From Rummeliibacillus pycnus (lineage in GTDB: Bacteria > Bacillota > Bacilli > Bacillales_A > Planococcaceae), in NCBI RefSeq assembly GCF_002884495.1, contig NZ_KZ614145.1:1178001-1242000 (forward strand): DNA of 64,000 bases, given 5' to 3'. Each line of letters begins with the position of its first letter. The first letter of the stretch is position 1. The notes below the pieces were generated by a model that was not told the origin of the DNA, made no database searches, and worked only from the letters and a program-made list of their open reading frames with translations. This document shows, one piece after another, positions 812-57,598 of this stretch. The position numbers and the translations under genes are program-made.

Positions 812-2416
812 ATGATTCAAGTAAGTAACGTAGGTCTTCGCTATGGCGACCGTAAGCTATTTGAAGATGTTAATATTAAATTTACACCTGGTAACTGTTA
901 CGGTTTAATCGGTGCCAATGGTGCGGGTAAATCTACATTTTTGAAAATATTATCTGGAGAAATCGAACCACAAGATGGACATGTTAGTATGAATCCTGGT
1001 GAACGTCTAGCTGTTTTAAAACAAAACCACTTCGAATATGAAGAATTCTCCGTTTTAGAAACAGTTATGATGGGGCACAAACGATTATATGACGTGATGC
1101 AAGAAAAGAATGCCATCTACATGAAAGATCCTTTTACTGATGAGGACGGTATCCGTGCAGCTGAATTAGAGGGTGAATTTGCTGATATGAACGGTTGGGA
1201 AGCAGAATCTGATGCAGCAATTCTACTACAAGGCTTAGGGATTCCGGAAGCAATGCACTATATGAAAATGGCAGAACTCACTGGTTCTGAGAAAGTAAAA
1301 GTATTGCTTGCTCAAGCTTTATTTGGCAAGCCAGATGTTCTTTTACTAGATGAGCCTACTAACCACTTAGATTTAAAAGCAATCCAATGGTTAGAAGAAT
1401 TCCTTATTAACTTTGAGAACACTGTAATTGTCGTATCCCATGACCGTCACTTTTTAAACAAAGTATGTACGCATATTGCAGACCTTGACTACTCTAAAAT
1501 TCAAATTTATGTGGGTAACTATGACTTCTGGTATGAGTCTAGTCAATTAGCTCAAAAAATGTTAGCCGATCAAAATAAGAAAAAAGAAGAAAAGATTAAA
1601 GAATTACAAGAATTCGTTGCTCGTTTCTCTGCGAATGCTTCGAAATCAAAACAAGCTACTTCCCGTAAGAAAATGCTTGAAAAAATTGAACTTGACGACA
1701 TTAAACCATCAAGCCGCAAATATCCTTATATTAACTTCCAAATGGAACGTGAAATTGGTAATGATGTTCTGACAGTTGATGGATTGAGTAAATCAATCGA
1801 AGGTGAAGTTCAGTTTAAAGATTTACGCTTCTCTATGAATAAAGAAGATAAAATTGTTTTACTTGGTAATCCAATTGCTAAAACAGCGTTTCTTAAAATC
1901 ATTGCTGGCGAAGATGAAGCTTTTGAAGGTTCATATAAATGGGGTGTGACAACATCTCAAAGCTACTTCCCTCTTGATAACGAAGAGTTCTTCAAAGGAA
2001 ATGAAAAAACTCTTGTGGAATGGTTACGTCAATTCTCTCCAGAAGATGAAACAGAAACATTCCTACGTGGCTTTTTAGGGCGTATGTTATTTAGTGGTGA
2101 AGAAGTAAAAAAATCACCTTCTGTTCTTTCTGGTGGAGAAAAAGTACGTTGCATGTTATCTAAAATGATGCTTTCTCACTCAAATGTGCTTTTATTAGAC
2201 GAACCGACGAATCACCTTGACCTTGAATCTATTCAAGCGTTAAACGAAGGTCTAATTAACTTTAAGGGTGCTATGATTTTCACATCACATGACCATCAAT
2301 TTATCCAAACTATTGCAAACCGTGTAATTGAAATTCGTAATGACGGATCTATTCTAGATAAACAGCTTACTTATGATGAGTTCTTAGAATGGAAAGAAGC
2401 AAATAATTTGGATTAA
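812..2416 (+). CDS. ykpA: ABC-F type ATPase, YkpA-like
   Basis: Cytosolic protein with two ABC ATPase domains and no membrane segment, as in ABC-F translation factors; overall it reads like B. subtilis YkpA (about 540 residues). Domain 1 has Walker A GANGAGKST (34-42) and LLLDEPTNHLDL near 180. Domain 2 ends with LSGGEK and a second LLLDEPTNHLDL. The sites are asymmetric: the domain 2 Walker A reads GNPIAKTA and the domain 1 signature reads LTGSE, so one composite ATP site is canonical and the other degenerate. AGGAG lies just upstream of the ATG. The gene stands alone and ends at a strong bidirectional terminator. Ribosome-associated function is inferred from the family. Confidence 0.9.
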   Translation: MIQVSNVGLRYGDRKLFEDVNIKFTPGNCYGLIGANGAGKSTFLKILSGEIEPQDGHVSMNPGERLAVLKQNHFEYEEFSVLETVMMGHKRLYDVMQEKNAIYMKDPFTDEDGIRAAELEGEFADMNGWEAESDAAILLQGLGIPEAMHYMKMAELTGSEKVKVLLAQALFGKPDVLLLDEPTNHLDLKAIQWLEEFLINFENTVIVVSHDRHFLNKVCTHIADLDYSKIQIYVGNYDFWYESSQLAQKMLADQNKKKEEKIKELQEFVARFSANASKSKQATSRKKMLEKIELDDIKPSSRKYPYINFQMEREIGNDVLTVDGLSKSIEGEVQFKDLRFSMNKEDKIVLLGNPIAKTAFLKIIAGEDEAFEGSYKWGVTTSQSYFPLDNEEFFKGNEKTLVEWLRQFSPEDETETFLRGFLGRMLFSGEEVKKSPSVLSGGEKVRCMLSKMMLSHSNVLLLDEPTNHLDLESIQALNEGLINFKGAMIFTSHDHQFIQTIANRVIEIRNDGSILDKQLTYDEFLEWKEANNLD

Positions 2417-2425
2417 TCTTTATAA

Positions 2426-2457
2426 AAAAGAGCTGTAGTTATTACTACAGCTCTTTT
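2426..2457. terminator. Bidirectional terminator between convergent genes
   Basis: A perfect 14-bp stem (2426-2439 with 2444-2457) closes a 4-base loop, with A/T tracts on both sides. It serves the ABC-F gene on the plus strand and the atoE-type gene on the minus strand. Confidence 0.92.
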
Positions 2458-2465
2458 CTCATATT

Positions 2466-3788
2466 TTAAAATAGCAGAAATCCTAAACTTATAATAATAC
2501 CAGTAAAGATCAGAACAAAAACACAGAAGCCCATAATATCTTTTGCTTTCAAACCTGCAATTGCAAGTGCCGGTAATGCCCAGAACGGCTGAATCATATT
2601 TGTCCACGCATCTCCCCATGCAATAGCCATTGCTGTTTTTGCATAATCAACACCAAGTACATGCGCTGCGTCTAGCATAATCGGTGCTTGAACAGCCCAC
2701 TGTCCCCCTCCCGATGGAACAAAAATGTTGACAATACCAGCTGCAAAAAACGTAAATAATGGAAAAGTAGTTTCATTTGAAATACGAATAAACCATTCTG
2801 AAATAACGGCTGCCAAACCTGATGCAGTCATCATTCCCATAATACCTGCATAAAAAGGAAATTGAAAAACAATGCCACCAGTAGTTTTAATCGCCTGATT
2901 TACTGCCGCAAGAAATTTTCTAGGTGTTCTATGCAAGATAATTCCTAAAACTACAAAAATCATATTCACTACATTTAAATTGAGATCAAAGCCTCTCGTT
3001 GCAAAGTGCCAAATAAGGTAAATTAATCCTAAAGCACCTATAAACACAGTTAGAATTACACTCGTTTCAGAGCGATTCGAAAAACTATTTTTCTGTTGGA
3101 TCGTATATTCATCTACTTCGACGTCATCGTTTAAAAGTTCAGGATTTACAACAACGGTCTCTTCTTCTTTCGGCATCATCCAACGATTAAAGAATGGTAA
3201 TGTAAGGAAGATCATAATAACAATGAATAAGTTATAAGGTGAAAATATCGTCTCGGTAGTAGGAATAACCCCCATTTTTTCAGCAAATGGATGACCTTCT
3301 GTTGCAATTGATAGCGGTATGGAACCTGCAAGGCCTCCATGCCAAACGATAAAACCAGAATATGCACTTGCAATTAATAATCTGTAATCTATCTTAGGAA
3401 CTTTACGAGCAATTTCCTTTGCAAACAGTGCTCCGATTACGAGGCCAAAACCCCAATTAATCCAACAAGCTATTATAGAGATAAAGCTAACAATAATAAT
3501 AGCACGAGCAGGTGTTTTAACTTTAGATGCCATATTACTAAGAATTTTTTTGAAGAATGGGCTATTTGCTAATACATGCCCTGCAGCTAAAACCACTACC
3601 ATTTGCATAGTGAATGCCAATAATCCCCAAAAACCATCTCCCCAATAAGAAACCATATTCATAGGAGTAGAATCTGTAAATATAAGTCCAAGTATTAAAA
3701 CAAGTGCAGTTAAAATAGCAACAAAAACATATGGATCTGGTAAATACTTTTCCATTAATGCATTAGACCATCTTGTCAAAACTTTCAA
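2466..3788 (-). CDS. atoE: Short-chain fatty acid transporter, AtoE family
   Basis: Integral membrane protein of 440 residues with about ten to twelve hydrophobic segments, matching the AtoE short-chain fatty acid permease family, which imports acetoacetate or butyrate-type acids. Typical family segments are seen: KYLPDPYVFVAILT at the N-terminus, WHGGLAGSIPL in the middle and VPSGGGQWAVQAP in the C-terminal half. The start is TTG, chosen because GGAGGAGGG sits just before it and no ATG is placed as well. It is monocistronic and convergent with the ABC-F gene. The substrate range is inferred from the family only. Confidence 0.87.
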   Translation of the reverse strand: MKVLTRWSNALMEKYLPDPYVFVAILTALVLILGLIFTDSTPMNMVSYWGDGFWGLLAFTMQMVVVLAAGHVLANSPFFKKILSNMASKVKTPARAIIIVSFISIIACWINWGFGLVIGALFAKEIARKVPKIDYRLLIASAYSGFIVWHGGLAGSIPLSIATEGHPFAEKMGVIPTTETIFSPYNLFIVIMIFLTLPFFNRWMMPKEEETVVVNPELLNDDVEVDEYTIQQKNSFSNRSETSVILTVFIGALGLIYLIWHFATRGFDLNLNVVNMIFVVLGIILHRTPRKFLAAVNQAIKTTGGIVFQFPFYAGIMGMMTASGLAAVISEWFIRISNETTFPLFTFFAAGIVNIFVPSGGGQWAVQAPIMLDAAHVLGVDYAKTAMAIAWGDAWTNMIQPFWALPALAIAGLKAKDIMGFCVFVLIFTGIIISLGFLLF

Positions 3789-49842: not shown

Positions 49843-50562
49843 TTACTCTTGTTCAAGCGGACAATAACCACAAGCACCGAGTCCTGGAATATCCTTTGAT
49901 AAACAGCATGATTTTCGAATTGGCTGATTAACTAACGATGAAGGTGCTAACCCTTTTGTATACTCATAAAATAAGGATTTTTCGCTAAAACGGGCCCATA
50001 CTTCTTTTGATTCTAACATTTCTAAATCATCCATTGCACGGTCAGCAAGTAATGGATCATCAAGCAATTTTGCATACACACCTACGATATGAACGAAAAA
50101 ATTATCCCATATAACACGGGGTGAAATAGATGTTGTATTGCGTAAATCCTGGACAATTTGATAGCACTGTTTGTATAAAATCGTTGACATCACATATTCA
50201 CGTTCGGAATCATTGACATAACGCCAGTCATTTGGATTGGCAAACATACAAACCGTATAGAGGCCATTTTCTTTCGTAGCATCAAATTGTAAATCACGTT
50301 CATGGCCATCCCAAATTTCATCGTAAGCCGTAAGCATATAAAATTGCATTGCGATAAATTGTCCGTAGCGTTTTGAAAAATGCGAAATGGCTGCTGTTTT
50401 CGATGCGGCATTCGTAATGCCAAGCATTAAGTCAGCAAACTCTCCTTCTTGGAAAAATTCTTTGTGCACTCGTTCAAGTGTAAAAAGAGAGCGTTTTGGT
50501 ATTGTTGTATAAACATTGTACGAATCAAGCATTAAAACTTGATCCATTGTAAGTGTTGGCAT
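49843..50562 (-). CDS. FhuF-like [2Fe-2S] iron reductase
   Basis: A 239-residue protein whose C-terminus has the FhuF cluster motif Cys219-Cys220-x10-Cys231-x2-Cys234 (KSCCLSKDIPGLGACGYCPL). FhuF-family proteins reduce ferric siderophores in the cytosol. The N-terminal 200 residues are helical, as in the family. No siderophore uptake genes or clear Fur box are next to it. A decayed preQ1-like element lies 200 bases upstream; there is no evidence it controls this gene. Confidence 0.82.
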   Translation of the reverse strand: MPTLTMDQVLMLDSYNVYTTIPKRSLFTLERVHKEFFQEGEFADLMLGITNAASKTAAISHFSKRYGQFIAMQFYMLTAYDEIWDGHERDLQFDATKENGLYTVCMFANPNDWRYVNDSEREYVMSTILYKQCYQIVQDLRNTTSISPRVIWDNFFVHIVGVYAKLLDDPLLADRAMDDLEMLESKEVWARFSEKSLFYEYTKGLAPSSLVNQPIRKSCCLSKDIPGLGACGYCPLEQE

Positions 50563-50767
50563 TGTATCACCTGTTTATTTCATAATATTTCTTCTCTATC
50601 ATATTACAATTTTTGATTTTTAGCTAAAATGATACTTTCTCGGGAAAATGGGATGAGCACTATTGATAGACTCAAACTATTTCAATTTTTTCTCCGATAT
50701 GTATCAATGTCTTTAATGACTTTACTTGCTACTAAATCATCAATTCATTTGAGATGATTGAACAAAT

Positions 50768-50848
50768 GAAAAATGCCATGAGCACAAAAGTGGGCATGGC
50801 ATTTTTCTGTTCCATAGTCTTATAGAGAGGTTTTACGATGAACCTCTT
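50768..50848 (-). promoter_or_regulatory. Decayed preQ1-I riboswitch with intact terminator
   Basis: On the minus strand AGAGGTTC opens a P1 hairpin closed by CCTCT, followed by an A-rich tail and CTA, then a terminator ATGCCATG/CATGGCAT with T tract (50768-50806). It aligns over about 85 bases with the intact element at 52694-52778. Two key features are lost: the base before CCTCT is A instead of the ligand-pairing C, and the pseudoknot TAG reads TCG. Confidence 0.65.
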
Positions 50849-50959
50849 AAAATTTAATCTTTTAAACTTAATCGTTAATCAAGAATTTGTATTGTCCTCA
50901 ATTACATTAAATGATTTACTTGGAAATTTAAAATGGATATGTAGCAAAATTGAATCTAC

Positions 50960-51622
50960 TTATTTTGCATACTTATCAACACGTTCTTCTAATTTTTCTC
51001 TCCATTTGTCAGCTAGTTCTGATACGTTTAGAATTTTTTTCATAGCTTCGACATCATTTGTGCGGTGAAAGTAAGTATCCATACAAAATAGAACAGAGAC
51101 CTCTTCGGGATGTCTTTTCACTAAAGAAATCTTGGAATCACTGCTTACAGTACCTTCCTTTAAGACTCTACATAAATAACCTACAAATCCAGTCTCCACA
51201 AGTCTCTTTAAAATAAGTGGATGACCTACTCTCCTTGAAATGGTGTTACATGGAATTCTCCCTTGTGTAATCTGAATGATGGCATCCCCAACCTGAAAAA
51301 TATCGCCAATACAAACGTTTTCCTCTAACATATTAGTAACCGTTAAATTTTCTCCAAAAGCAGCTGCATCTAAGGGTTTTCCAAATTCTTTTTCCCATTT
51401 TGCATAATGTTCAAATGGGTAAATACATACCGCTCTATCAAGTCCACCATGATGTTTTAAGTCTGCTACACCATCCCCACGAAATCCATCTTTTGTTAAA
51501 TATGCTTCATGAATCGCTTGTTTACAAATTCCTGTATCCATTACTTGATCTTTTCCATATCTCATTTCCTTCGGTAAACCTATTGAAAAATTTACGATCT
51601 TTGCTATGTTATGCACTTCCAT
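50960..51622 (-). CDS. MOSC-domain protein
   Basis: A 220-residue protein with a MOSC domain (YiiM/YflK type). Typical segments are GVADLKHHGGLDRAVCIYPF, AFGENLTV and ITQGRIPCNTI, followed by a C-terminal three-helix part. MOSC proteins bind molybdenum cofactor and reduce N-hydroxylated compounds or transfer sulfur. The conserved Cys of RIPC is present. It is monocistronic; its transcript would run into the decayed riboswitch terminator. Confidence 0.88.
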   Translation of the reverse strand: MEVHNIAKIVNFSIGLPKEMRYGKDQVMDTGICKQAIHEAYLTKDGFRGDGVADLKHHGGLDRAVCIYPFEHYAKWEKEFGKPLDAAAFGENLTVTNMLEENVCIGDIFQVGDAIIQITQGRIPCNTISRRVGHPLILKRLVETGFVGYLCRVLKEGTVSSDSKISLVKRHPEEVSVLFCMDTYFHRTNDVEAMKKILNVSELADKWREKLEERVDKYAK

Positions 51623-52083: not shown

Positions 52084-52587
52084 TTATCGATTATCCACTT
52101 TTTCTGGATAAAGGTCGTGATTCATCAAGCGATGCTCAGCCATTTTCTCGTATTTTGTATTTGGGCGGCCATAATTACTCCATGGATCAATTGACAAACC
52201 ACCTCTAGGTGTAAATTTACCCCATACCTCAATATAACGAGGATCTAGTAGTTTAATCAAATCTTTCATAATAATATTGACACAGTCCTCATGGAAATCT
52301 CCATGATTTCGAAAACTGAACAAATACAACTTCAATGACTTACTTTCAACCAACTTCTTATCAGGGATGAAAGAAATATAAATAGTTGCAAAGTCTGGTT
52401 GACCTGTCATCGGACATAGACTTGTAAATTCTGGGCAATTGAATTTCACAAAGAAATCGTTCTCCGTATGTAAATTATCAACTGCTTCCAGTACGTCTGG
52501 ATTATATTCATATGAGTATTTTGTATTTTGATTGCCTAGTAGCGTTAAATCTTTTAATCCCTGTTCATTTGTTCTTCCTGACATCAT
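52084..52587 (-). CDS. queF: NADPH-dependent preQ0 reductase QueF
   Basis: A 167-residue enzyme of the tunnelling fold that reduces 7-cyano-7-deazaguanine (preQ0) to preQ1 on the way to queuosine in tRNA. The active-site Cys58 lies in [13 protein letters not shown] with Asp65, and the QueF signature ESKSLK is at 81-86. AAGGAGG precedes the ATG. A clear preQ1-I riboswitch with terminator lies upstream, giving feedback by the product. No other queuosine genes are in the window. Confidence 0.96.
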
Positions 52588-52693
52588 GTTGCCTCCTTAA
52601 ATCGTAAAGATGCGCATAACTTAAACACCCCAAAACTAATATGAAAACTCCTTTATTTCAATAACCGGGTAATGAGAGCATCTGAAGCATAAT

Positions 52694-52778
52694 AAAAAAG
52701 CCATGTCCGCAAAAGTGGACATGGCATTATTCACATGCTCCATAGTTTTTTAGAGAGGGTTTGCGCTATGAACCTCTT
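52694..52778 (-). promoter_or_regulatory. preQ1-I riboswitch with terminator, controlling queF
   Basis: On the minus strand the aptamer (52742-52778) has P1 AGAGG/CCTCT, UUC after the first arm, C just before CCTCT for pairing with preQ1, and TAG able to form the pseudoknot with CTA in the A-rich tail. A terminator GCCATGTCC/GGACATGGC with six T follows (52694-52725). Ligand binding should favour termination. Confidence 0.9.
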
Positions 52779-52856
52779 ATTATTTTCATTAATATGATAC
52801 TTAACAATTTTAGGTTCGTCAAGAAAATATAGATGCTATCATTTTAAGGAGTACAT

Positions 52857-53183
52857 CTAATCATCCTCTACCTCTAAAAGATAGATTCCTTTTGTAAAAC
52901 CCCCCCGCTGTTCCTTTTTTGTCAAACGTATTTGTTCCAACTCTTGAAAAGAAACATTGTATACACTTAATGCAGCATGAACAAGTTCTAACACATCTGC
53001 TAATTCTTCTAATTCATCTTGTTGGCTAACTGATTCCTTAAATTCTAGTGCTTCTTCTTGCATTTTCAACTTAATTTCTGCTAAGTGCACTTCTGGAGCT
53101 AAAACTTTAGTTGTATATTGCTTACCATTCTTCGCAATTACTTCTGGTATTAAATCACGTACTAATTTATTGTATATTGGCAT
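52857..53183 (-). CDS. MazG-like nucleotide pyrophosphohydrolase
   Basis: A 108-residue all-alpha NTP pyrophosphatase relative. It begins MPIYNKLVRDLIPEVIAKNG and has the acidic metal-binding pair of helices: KMQEEALEFKES and DELEELADVLELVHA. It likely removes unwanted nucleotides. The family is sometimes labelled phosphoribosyl-ATP pyrophosphohydrolase-like. Upstream of it (53184-53222) is a short gap to the amidohydrolase gene on the same strand, so the two may be cotranscribed. Confidence 0.82.
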   Translation of the reverse strand: MPIYNKLVRDLIPEVIAKNGKQYTTKVLAPEVHLAEIKLKMQEEALEFKESVSQQDELEELADVLELVHAALSVYNVSFQELEQIRLTKKEQRGGFTKGIYLLEVEDD

Positions 53184-53222
53184 TTTGGATTCACCTCTTT
53201 TAAACCATTACATTCATGCTTT

Positions 53223-54413
53223 TTAGTCTTTCTTTTGTTGATAGACATCCAACAAATCCATTGCAAGTCTACTAAAAACTTCAGCACCTCTAGCCAAGAC
53301 CCGATCATCAAAGTGAAATTGAGGATGATGTAAATCTAGATACCCTGAATCCTCTTTTGCTATTCCTAATCTAAAATAGAGTGCTGGGATTTGATCTGCA
53401 TAGTAGCCGAAATCATCGCCACCCATTGACGGCTCTTTTAAAACTTCAATTTCATTTTCTGCCATGAATTTTTTTGCACTATTCTCTAATTGTTCTGCTA
53501 AAAAGAAATCGTTAAAGATATGGGGTGCTCCGAATTTCATTTGATACTCTATTTGCACATTCCACATATTCGATAAGTTTTCACATATATTTTTGATCTC
53601 TGCATCAATTTGTTGTCGAAGCACTTTAGAATAGGATCTCGATGTTCCTGTCAACACAAGTTCGTCTGCTACTACATTTGCTGCGTTTCCACCATGAATG
53701 GAGCCAACATGAATGACATGTGGCTCTAAGGGATTAAATTTCTTAATATTAATGTGATTCATATGCTGGATCAATTCAGTCCCTATTACAATTGCATCTA
53801 TTGCTTGATGAGGACGAGCACTATGTCCTCCCTTACCTTTTATATGGATAGAAAATGTATCACATGCAGCAGTTGCATTCCCTTTTTTAATACCGATATG
53901 TCCAAAAGGTAGATGCGGCCATAAATGCAAACCAATAATCGATTTTACCTTTGGATTTTGCAATACGCCCTCGTTTACTAGACGTAAAGCAGCTCCATCT
54001 GCTTCCTCTCCAGGCTGAAAAATACAACGAACTGTTCCTTTTATAAGTGATCGATTATCGTATAAGCTTTTTACAGCTCCAAGTAAAATAGCTGTATGAC
54101 CGTCATGACCACATGCATGCATAACACCTTCATTTTGTGATTGATATTCACTTACATATTCTTCTTTAATAGGTAGTGCATCTATATCTGCTCTTAAAGC
54201 AATCGTTTCTCCTTTATGTTCACCGACAATATCGACAAATACACCTGTATTTGCAATTTCTTTATAGGATATTCCCCAATCCATTAATGTCTTTTTGATC
54301 ATAGCTGCTGTTTCATATTCCTGAAAAGATAACTCTGGATTTTTGTGCAGATGACGTCTTATTTTTATTAAAGTATCTGCTAAGGTTGGATCGATTTTCA
54401 TCACATTCTTCAC
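53223..54413 (-). CDS. M20 amidohydrolase
   Basis: A 396-residue enzyme of the M20D group (N-acyl amino acid or hippurate hydrolase type), like the one at 40308-41483. The metal motifs are HACGHDGHTA, FQPGEEADGA, GKGGHSARPH and GGDDFGYY. The start is ATG. The substrate is unknown; no linked transporter is present here, so the role may be general peptide or acyl-amino-acid turnover. Confidence 0.86.
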   Translation of the reverse strand: MKNVMKIDPTLADTLIKIRRHLHKNPELSFQEYETAAMIKKTLMDWGISYKEIANTGVFVDIVGEHKGETIALRADIDALPIKEEYVSEYQSQNEGVMHACGHDGHTAILLGAVKSLYDNRSLIKGTVRCIFQPGEEADGAALRLVNEGVLQNPKVKSIIGLHLWPHLPFGHIGIKKGNATAACDTFSIHIKGKGGHSARPHQAIDAIVIGTELIQHMNHINIKKFNPLEPHVIHVGSIHGGNAANVVADELVLTGTSRSYSKVLRQQIDAEIKNICENLSNMWNVQIEYQMKFGAPHIFNDFFLAEQLENSAKKFMAENEIEVLKEPSMGGDDFGYYADQIPALYFRLGIAKEDSGYLDLHHPQFHFDDRVLARGAEVFSRLAMDLLDVYQQKKD

Positions 54414-54750
54414 TCCTTTTCTTTACGCGATATGTAAAAACTTCTGTAAAAATATTTTTCTATATTCTTTACAATATGTTCTAGTAATATCCCATAATCC
54501 CTTTAAATTTTTTAGTTCTTTAAAAAGAAAGATCGTCCAATTAATCGAACGATCTCTACTGTTTATTGTAATTTAAGATTTCTTCATGTTCTCCCCATTA
54601 AATCAATTATCCAGAACGAAGCAAAGGAAGAAGCTACATCTTACGCACACGGAAAACATTCTTCTGAACCAGATTCCCTTTCTTCACATAAAAAAGTACA
54701 ATTCAAAAATTGAATTGTACTTTTAGGGTAGCCCTTTTTATGAATTATCA
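54414..54750. other. Intergenic stretch with two hairpins
   Basis: No gene is seen. A hairpin AGATCGT/ACGATCT at 54530-54555 has a T tract on the minus strand. A perfect 15-bp stem at 54694-54726 with T residues on both sides is the terminator of the CoA-disulfide reductase gene. Confidence 0.6.
54694..54726 (-). terminator. Terminator after the CoA-disulfide reductase gene
   Basis: AAAAGTACAATTCAA (54694-54708) pairs with 54712-54726; the stem is perfect and followed by T residues on the minus strand. Confidence 0.88.
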
Positions 54751-56445
54751 TTATTTAAAATTGTACGCTGTTACGATTTTTTCTCGACCTGTTGTTGTAT
54801 CATCGAAATATTCATACAAACAAATACCAAGGAATGATCCTGATACGTTCCAAACATTGTGGTAACCTGAATTTTGAAGTGCCATTACAGCGTTATAGCT
54901 GCGTTGACCAGAACGACAATGAACATAAACTGGGATATCTTTTGGAATTTCATCCATACGTTCGCGTAGTTCACTTAGTGGAATATTGACTGCACCTTTT
55001 AAATGTCCATTTTCAAACTCATTTTTTTCACGTACATCTACAATACAGGCATTTTTCTCCACTAGTTCACGAACTTGTGAAACAGCAACTTGACGATAAC
55101 GACCATATAACAAGTTTAATCCAACTAAAGCCGCAAGATTCACGACATCTCTTGCTGTGCTATACATTGGTGAATAAGATAATTCTAATTCTTTCAGATC
55201 TTCTAGTGTGCCACCCATTGTAATCAAAGTAGCAATTACATCGATTCGCTTATCTGCATTACCTTTACCAATAGCTTGGGCACCTAAAATTCTTCCAGTT
55301 GGTACTTCATATACTAATTTAAAGTGTAATGGATGACTATTTGGCATAAGTCCTACTTTATCTGGTGCGATTAAGTATACACTATTTACGTTAAAACCAG
55401 CATCTTTTGCTGTTTTTTCATTGAGTCCTGTTACTGCACAATTTAAATCAAATAGTTGAATACTAGATGAACCTATTACACCCGTGTTTCGATTCGGTAT
55501 ATTGTACATATGATTTGCAGCTGCACGTGCTTGTCGTTGTGCAGGACCTGCAAGTGCAAGTCTTGTTTGTTTGTGTGTTAAGCGGTGATAGACTTCAATT
55601 GCATCACCTACAGCATAGATGGATGGATCCGATGTAACATAATTTTGGTTTACTTTTATCCCACCAAGCTCACCGATTTCAAGTCCAGCGTCTTTCGCTA
55701 AAGAAATTTCTGGTCGAACACCAATTGCTAGTACAATTGCTTGGGCTTTCACTTGTTTGCCAGAGTTTAATTCGACATAATCATCTGCTACTTTTGAGAG
55801 CGCATCATTAACAATTAGCTGTACACCTTGATCAATCATTTCTTTGTGTAAAATTTGTGCCATGTCATAATCAAATGGAGTCAAAATTTGATTTCTCGAT
55901 TGCACTAATGATACATTCTTACCTGACAAGTGTAGATTTTCGGCTACTTCTATCCCAATAAATCCTCCACCAATAACTGCAATGTCTTGCACATCATCAT
56001 TTTTTACATATTGGTTTAAACGTTCGATATCTGTAACGTTTCTTACTGTAAAGACATGAGGAGCATGTATTCCTTCAATATCTGGAATGATTGGACTTGC
56101 ACCTGGTGATAACACTAAATAATCGTAGTTTTCGTCATATTGTTCATCTGTTAATAAATTTTTGACTGTAACTGTTTTAGCTTCACGATTGATAGCAATA
56201 ACTTCTTGTTGCACACGTGCTTCAATATTGTATTTTGTTTTAAAAGCGGTTGGATTCATTAATACCAATCTTTTGCTATTTTCAACAATTCCACTTAAAT
56301 GGAAAGGTAATGAACAATTTGAAAATGAAACATGTGGTCCTTTTTCAAACATAATAATTTCGGCTTGTTCATCTAAACGACGAATTCGTGCAGCAGTAGA
56401 AGCGCCACCTGCTACGCCACCAACGACTAGAATCTTTTTCCCCAT
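54751..56445 (-). CDS. CoA-disulfide reductase fused to rhodanese domain
   Basis: A 564-residue flavoprotein. FAD-binding GGVAGGASTAAR (9-20), active Cys44 in SFSNCSLPF, NAD(P)H-binding GGGFIGIEVAEN, then FAD site YAVGDAIEV. The C-terminal 100 residues are a rhodanese domain with active Cys510 in HCRSGQRS. Such fusions reduce CoA disulfide and per- or polysulfides using NAD(P)H, handling reactive sulfur. A palindromic operator lies in the promoter. The start is ATG; no neighbour on the same operon. Confidence 0.93.
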   Translation of the reverse strand: MGKKILVVGGVAGGASTAARIRRLDEQAEIIMFEKGPHVSFSNCSLPFHLSGIVENSKRLVLMNPTAFKTKYNIEARVQQEVIAINREAKTVTVKNLLTDEQYDENYDYLVLSPGASPIIPDIEGIHAPHVFTVRNVTDIERLNQYVKNDDVQDIAVIGGGFIGIEVAENLHLSGKNVSLVQSRNQILTPFDYDMAQILHKEMIDQGVQLIVNDALSKVADDYVELNSGKQVKAQAIVLAIGVRPEISLAKDAGLEIGELGGIKVNQNYVTSDPSIYAVGDAIEVYHRLTHKQTRLALAGPAQRQARAAANHMYNIPNRNTGVIGSSSIQLFDLNCAVTGLNEKTAKDAGFNVNSVYLIAPDKVGLMPNSHPLHFKLVYEVPTGRILGAQAIGKGNADKRIDVIATLITMGGTLEDLKELELSYSPMYSTARDVVNLAALVGLNLLYGRYRQVAVSQVRELVEKNACIVDVREKNEFENGHLKGAVNIPLSELRERMDEIPKDIPVYVHCRSGQRSYNAVMALQNSGYHNVWNVSGSFLGICLYEYFDDTTTGREKIVTAYNFK

Positions 56446-56725: not shown

Positions 56726-57598
56726 TTAACGATTTCTTGCTCTAAAAATCAAAACAGCAATGAAACAAAATATAATAGATGCTCCTACAATAACCGACAA
56801 ATGCGCTGTTTGAGTCATAATTTGGTTATGCCAATCATAGGTAACCCCAAATATGGACATATATTCTTCCTTCGCTTGAGAAGCACCTTTAAAGACTTTG
56901 TCTAATGAATTGCTCATAAATAGCTCTCTTAACATAACAGTTGGATGGCTTAAAGGAAAATAGATCATAAACTTTTGAACGTAATCAGGAAGTTCACCCA
57001 TTGGGACATAAACGCCACATAAGAATCCAATTACAGTCCCAATAATCGTACTTAAAGTTGAAAAAGCGGTTTGTGATTCTACTATCAGTGTACAAAGTAA
57101 ATTAAACGTACTCGCTAATGTCACAGCTAGTAACAACACACCCATAATTTTAAGGAAAGTTGAAAAGTCAACCCATTCACCACCAGAAGAAACAAGGAAA
57201 ATCTCACATCCAATAAAAGCAATAATTGAAAATACACTACCAATGATAAATGCATTGATAACGTAACTTACTAGGAGCGTACCTCTAGAAATAGGCATCG
57301 TTAAAAAATCTTCTGCTCTTTTCGTTTCTAAATCACGAACGTAGATACCGAATGCACCCAGTGTTGTAGTAATTGCTATGATTGATAGTAAACCTGCTAC
57401 CATCCACTCATTCACCATTGTTTCGATATCATTTGTAACTTTTACCATTTGTGAAATGGAATCAATTTGTGTTTTTTGTAAAAATAAAGCATAAAGCAGA
57501 ATCACAATGATTACTGATAAAAGAGAGAAGAAGACTGTTGTTCGCTCTCTCCTAAAGACTTTCGAGTGTCTGCTTACTAAGCTCATTACCATTGTCAT
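56726..57598 (-). CDS. ABC-2 type permease
   Basis: A 290-residue permease with six hydrophobic segments and a large outside loop, of the ABC-2 (DrrB-like) exporter class; LETKRAEDFLTMPISRGTLLVSY is typical. The ATG at 57598 is preferred: AAGGGG sits nine bases ahead. It overlaps the end of the ATPase gene by 47 bases in another frame. Last gene of the four-gene operon LytTR, DUF3021, ATPase, permease. The substrate is unknown. Confidence 0.82.
   Translation of the reverse strand: MTMVMSLVSRHSKVFRRERTTVFFSLLSVIIVILLYALFLQKTQIDSISQMVKVTNDIETMVNEWMVAGLLSIIAITTTLGAFGIYVRDLETKRAEDFLTMPISRGTLLVSYVINAFIIGSVFSIIAFIGCEIFLVSSGGEWVDFSTFLKIMGVLLLAVTLASTFNLLCTLIVESQTAFSTLSTIIGTVIGFLCGVYVPMGELPDYVQKFMIYFPLSHPTVMLRELFMSNSLDKVFKGASQAKEEYMSIFGVTYDWHNQIMTQTAHLSVIVGASIIFCFIAVLIFRARNR

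Follow-up and report, generated by a model that had tools for sequence, protein, structure and literature searches.

Introduction

The preQ1-I riboswitch (Rfam RF00522), and within it the type II subgroup with AC before the 3′ strand of P1 (PMC11625349), is the described system closest to the element analyzed here. The C that immediately precedes the P1 3′ strand pairs with preQ1 and is strictly conserved in class I (PMC11625349). We analyzed a stretch of 64,000 nucleotides of Rummeliibacillus pycnus DNA (the window), in which an initial annotation had recognized a decayed preQ1-I copy (copy2) 1.9 kb from the intact riboswitch of queF (copy1). An identity of 80% between the two, together with the loss of several features in copy2, bore this out.

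Like preQ1-I riboswitches, copy2 has a P1 stem (AGAGG/CCUCU), the loop sequence UUC, a CUAUGG 3′ strand and a downstream terminator, and it is paralogous to the queF copy. Unlike them, it has an A at the specificity C, has lost AG from its pseudoknot strand and has an interrupted L3. It also has neither a promoter-like site nor a queuosine gene behind it, and its antiterminator is weakened. Copy2 also resembles an ordinary intrinsic (rho-independent) terminator in its long, stable stem, its U run and the same-strand gene before it, but differs from one in that its 5′ part is recognisable as a dead aptamer.

Results

Copy2 is related to the queF riboswitch along its whole length

The two elements and their parts are as follows.

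50848-50768, minus strand: copy2, a preQ1-I riboswitch paralogue and relative of copy1
50812..50848, minus strand: decayed preQ1-I aptamer of copy2 (from alignment, shuffles and folding)
50847-50843 and 50830-50826: 5′ and 3′ arms of copy2 P1
50842-50831: loop of copy2
50825-50818: L3 of copy2
50817-50812, minus strand: 3′ strand of the copy2 pseudoknot, with GG
50768..50807, minus strand: copy2 terminator hairpin, with a T run in the 3′ arm
52700..52777, minus strand: copy1, the preQ1-I riboswitch before queF (RF00522, 36.4 bits, E 4.1e-5)
52725-52700, minus strand: copy1 terminator, 9-bp stem
52822-52794, minus strand: copy1 promoter, TTGACG-17-TATCAT, near-consensus

A regional DNA search aligned copy2 with copy1 over 92 nt at 80.4% identity (E 5.9e-17). 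Genome-wide the match had an E of 1.1e-16, against 0.097 for the runner-up elsewhere. The similarity extends beyond the terminator, since the 37-nt aptamer without it reached a local score of 47, while dinucleotide shuffles gave a mean of 11.9 and a maximum of 26 (n = 5,000) and the best score in shuffled 10.5-kb regions was 27. Chance similarity outside the terminator, which had been named as an outcome that would overturn the annotation, was ruled out in this way, as the aptamer part exceeded all 5,000 shuffles.

Against RF00522, copy2 alone scored 18.2 bits, below the Rfam gathering cut-off of 39 bits and close to the background in the source genome (up to 17.9 bits), and it was absent from the matches at E ≤ 10 in a 2.5-kb search. 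The cut-off is a weak test on its own, because copy1, which bears all core preQ1-I features, also falls just under it.

Aptamer, promoter and antiterminator of copy2 are damaged

We compared copy2 with 22 intact elements: copy1, those of two congeners, three others of the same genome and 16 from related genomes. The three same-genome riboswitches stand before queT, queCDE and a VUT-type transporter (gene names read from translations). With queF, each of these genes has its own intact riboswitch, so that none of them needs copy2. At two loci of related genera (L079 1449-2127 and L077 1438-2166), queF is flanked by two tandem preQ1-I riboswitches, one before queF and the second, with a shorter loop and a CUAAG tail, between queF and queCDE.

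The specificity base (C17 equivalent) is an A at position 50831 in copy2, as initially annotated; each of the 22 intact elements has a C. Its presence in the riboswitches of both congeners marks C as the ancestral state, which argues for decay in the source lineage. The pseudoknot is indeed broken, although by a different change from the TAG-to-TCG substitution first proposed: alignment with three intact orthologues favored a 2-nt deletion of AG, by which CATAGCGC became CAT--CGT. The queF-type pseudoknot comprises 5 bp (CAUAG/CUAUG), of which copy2 retains at most 3 (CAU/AUG). The L3 of copy2, CTATAAGA, carries two substitutions relative to xTAAAAAA (the A-rich UAAAAAA of preQ1-I riboswitches) and lacks the run of at least six A found in the other 22 elements. 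P1 was kept and is predicted to extend to 7 bp (−7.9 kcal/mol, versus −4.2 kcal/mol in copy1); the C-to-A change lets the loop UU pair with AA, so that a closed hairpin is predicted. Judged by its sequence, copy2 lacks the hallmarks of a functional preQ1-I aptamer, as its specificity base, pseudoknot and L3 are all altered.

The damage extends to both sides of the aptamer.

50856..50882, minus strand: copy2 promoter remains, with a −35-like TTGATT at 50882-50877

There was no acceptable −10 element at 16–18 nt from TTGATT, the sigma-A −10 box being gone, and several nucleotides have been lost between the promoter remains and the aptamer. For comparison, the intact element of the congener Rummeliibacillus sp. 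POC4 (G001) has TTGACT-17-TATGAT. The antiterminator strand ACAUG (partner CAUGU) was damaged by the loss of 3 nt immediately before the terminator hairpin, and the best antiterminator computed for copy2 had −2.8 kcal/mol, versus −6.1 to −7.7 kcal/mol in intact elements.

A congener has one riboswitch that matches both copies

The order in the window is ABC2, three other genes, copy1, queF, MOSC, copy2 and FhuF.

56729-57598: ABC2 gene, on the far side of copy1
52084..52587, minus strand: queF (preQ0 reductase), behind copy1 (Pfam PF14489, E 3.3e-33)
50960..51622, minus strand: MOSC-domain gene, upstream of copy2 (Pfam PF03473, E 1.2e-32)
49843..50562, minus strand: FhuF-like gene, downstream of copy2, with a C-terminal cysteine motif in its sequence

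Copy2 thus lies where the initial annotation had placed it, between MOSC and FhuF genes, both on the minus strand. The FhuF-like gene, which had no Pfam match at 1e-3 and was assigned from its sequence, stands next to copy2 in place of a queuosine or preQ1 gene. In POC4, the coding strand carries ABC2, MOSC, riboswitch and queF in succession, then FhuF, with a hydrolase gene on the opposite strand between queF and FhuF. The synteny comparison proposed with the annotation hence gave an answer: the POC4 riboswitch occupies the place of copy2, and queF stands directly behind it. In DNA alignments, window 50762-51595 (copy2 and MOSC) was contiguous with the POC4 locus L066 at 2970-3782, and window 52084-52803 (queF and copy1) with the same locus at 2369-3085. 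These two blocks overlap on one locus, so that the single riboswitch of POC4 matches both window copies, which makes copy2 a riboswitch fossil.

A second congener (G003) has the order ABC2, riboswitch, queF and FhuF, but MOSC is missing and FhuF is preceded by other genes; the CoA-disulfide reductase-like gene lies on the other side of FhuF there, which indicates that the neighborhood was reshuffled. Two Bacillaceae-1 RNA elements (RF01690, 70-72 bits) lie near riboswitch-queF in G003, at L070 2059-2126 and 2656-2722. With the limits used, searches of a third congener (G002, 3.3 Mb) for queF, MOSC, the ABC2 permease and the FhuF-like gene all came back without a match, and the whole neighborhood seems to be absent from it. 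Beyond copy1, window 52857-56445 holds MazG-like, M20 peptidase and CoA-disulfide reductase-like genes, which are absent between riboswitch and ABC2 in both POC4 and G003.

DNA-level searches of 261 family genomes for copy2-like elements returned only the queF riboswitches of the congeners and two short partial matches to the terminator half; plasmids carried no copies. The source species is represented by one genome. At eleven MOSC loci of other genera, no preQ1 riboswitch accompanied the MOSC gene.

Upstream of the FhuF-like gene, a stretch of 68 bp (50563-50630) was 84% conserved in POC4 and G003, above other intergenic DNA here, and is probably the promoter and operator of that gene. The gene keeps this stretch of its own in all three species, so there is no indication that it took over copy2. 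DNA and protein searches of the 137 bp between copy2 and this conserved region recognized no remains of queF or of any other gene. With no relic visible, gene order is what points to the loss of a queF behind copy2. A protein-like 20-codon open stretch, IDDLVASKVIKDIDTYRRKN (window 50744-50685), was rejected as a gene remnant, having no relative in 60 other genomes.

Copy2 has more unique changes than copy1 and has kept a strong predicted terminator

With both congeners agreeing as outgroups, a relative-rate count gave 11 unique changes in copy2 versus two in copy1 (p 0.022), which points, modestly but consistently, to relaxed constraint on copy2. Four-fold degenerate sites are near saturation between the species (35-51% identical in queF and 30-49% in FhuF), whereas the identity of copy2 to copy1 remains at 80%. 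Constraint would therefore have been lost after the species separated, or lost only in part. A sequence evolving freely since that separation should differ more than copy2 does, so by this comparison the decay of copy2 must be fairly recent or the element partly constrained.

The terminator, at first described as intact, is strong but altered in sequence. The computed stability of its hairpin is −21 to −22.5 kcal/mol with AUUUUUC in the 3′ arm, giving it the stable hairpin and U run of an intrinsic terminator. It stays strong because A/U changes lengthened the outer stem, now 13 bp, while the inner stem gained a 2×2 internal loop, on account of which a simple terminator scan missed the hairpin. 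No other terminator-like structure was seen between MOSC and the FhuF-like gene.

Could copy2 be a fossil with no function at all, whose hairpin persists owing to chance and a recent origin? Six substitutions in the terminator are unique to copy2, as many as the changes in the aptamer (four plus a deletion), and the decay postdates the species split, both of which would suit such a relic. However, eight changes in the terminator stretch should have weakened the hairpin to about −10 kcal/mol, whereas that of copy2 is stronger than the ancestral form. In a post hoc simulation with indels limited to one fixed deletion, eight random substitutions from the ancestral form gave a mean of −9.8 kcal/mol, and 0.5% of the outcomes were as stable as copy2. 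This low frequency is suggestive, though not proof, of selection on the terminator, and copy2 is the only such structure between the two genes. We therefore consider a wholly functionless copy2 possible but doubtful. A hairpin rebuilt rather than lost makes it probable, on the strength of these computed structures, that copy2 acts as a plain terminator of MOSC transcription.

Discussion

Copy2 is, in all likelihood, a dead remnant of a preQ1-I riboswitch of the queF type, one that acted by transcription termination; it would have been left by tandem duplication and gene loss and now probably serves as the MOSC terminator. The fossil and the left-over terminator, offered as separate readings in the initial annotation, are both supported by the synteny with POC4 and G003 and become parts of one history. 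The ancestral order would have been ABC2, MOSC, riboswitch, queF and FhuF. In the simplest history, the queF-riboswitch-MOSC segment was duplicated in tandem in the source lineage, and loss of queF behind one riboswitch and of MOSC beside the other presumably came next. The sequence shows what the orphan aptamer would then have lost: promoter, specificity base and antiterminator, along with part of the pseudoknot. The computed structures predict that the remainder, with no ligand bound, forms fixed hairpins, of which the last would be a rho-independent terminator ending transcription from MOSC.

The same end state could have arisen if a riboswitch-queF piece had transposed across MOSC to its other side, without tandem duplication and reciprocal loss. 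Such a move yields the identical final gene order, and remains of a duplicate MOSC or queF are not visible. It needs special steps, though, with the riboswitch copied and queF moved, whereas tandem duplication with loss needs none, and we regard it as unlikely.

That copy2 is a riboswitch of changed specificity controlling the FhuF-like gene, or an aptamer in transit to a new ligand in which the A in place of C and the loss of two loop bases form a different small pocket gating that gene, is in either form highly improbable: P1, the loop UUC, the CUAUGG strand and the terminator are retained, and some guanine-class riboswitches have switched ligand through changes of key recognition bases (PMC11625349), but the pocket is predicted to be closed by UU/AA pairing, the pseudoknot has at most 3 bp, the antiterminator is weak, no promoter-like site stands in front, no recruited gene is evident, the FhuF upstream region is conserved in congeners without a riboswitch directly before FhuF, and the family genomes searched held no second example, the A occurring in no other element found. 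This part of the initial annotation gained no positive support.

Copy2 adds one more case to a type of event already known, and is not a new system. Searches of the open literature for riboswitch remnants or pseudogenes under those phrases found no publications, which does not prove their absence. Copy2 shows an orderly death of a riboswitch, in which duplication and gene loss were followed by loss of the promoter, the pocket and the antiterminator, and through which the terminator hairpin persisted and was even strengthened. With the intact parent 1.9 kb away and the ancestral arrangement in a congener, each step of this decay can be tested. The locus also calls for caution, as riboswitch-like sequences without a gene need to be examined for synteny before a new ligand is proposed.
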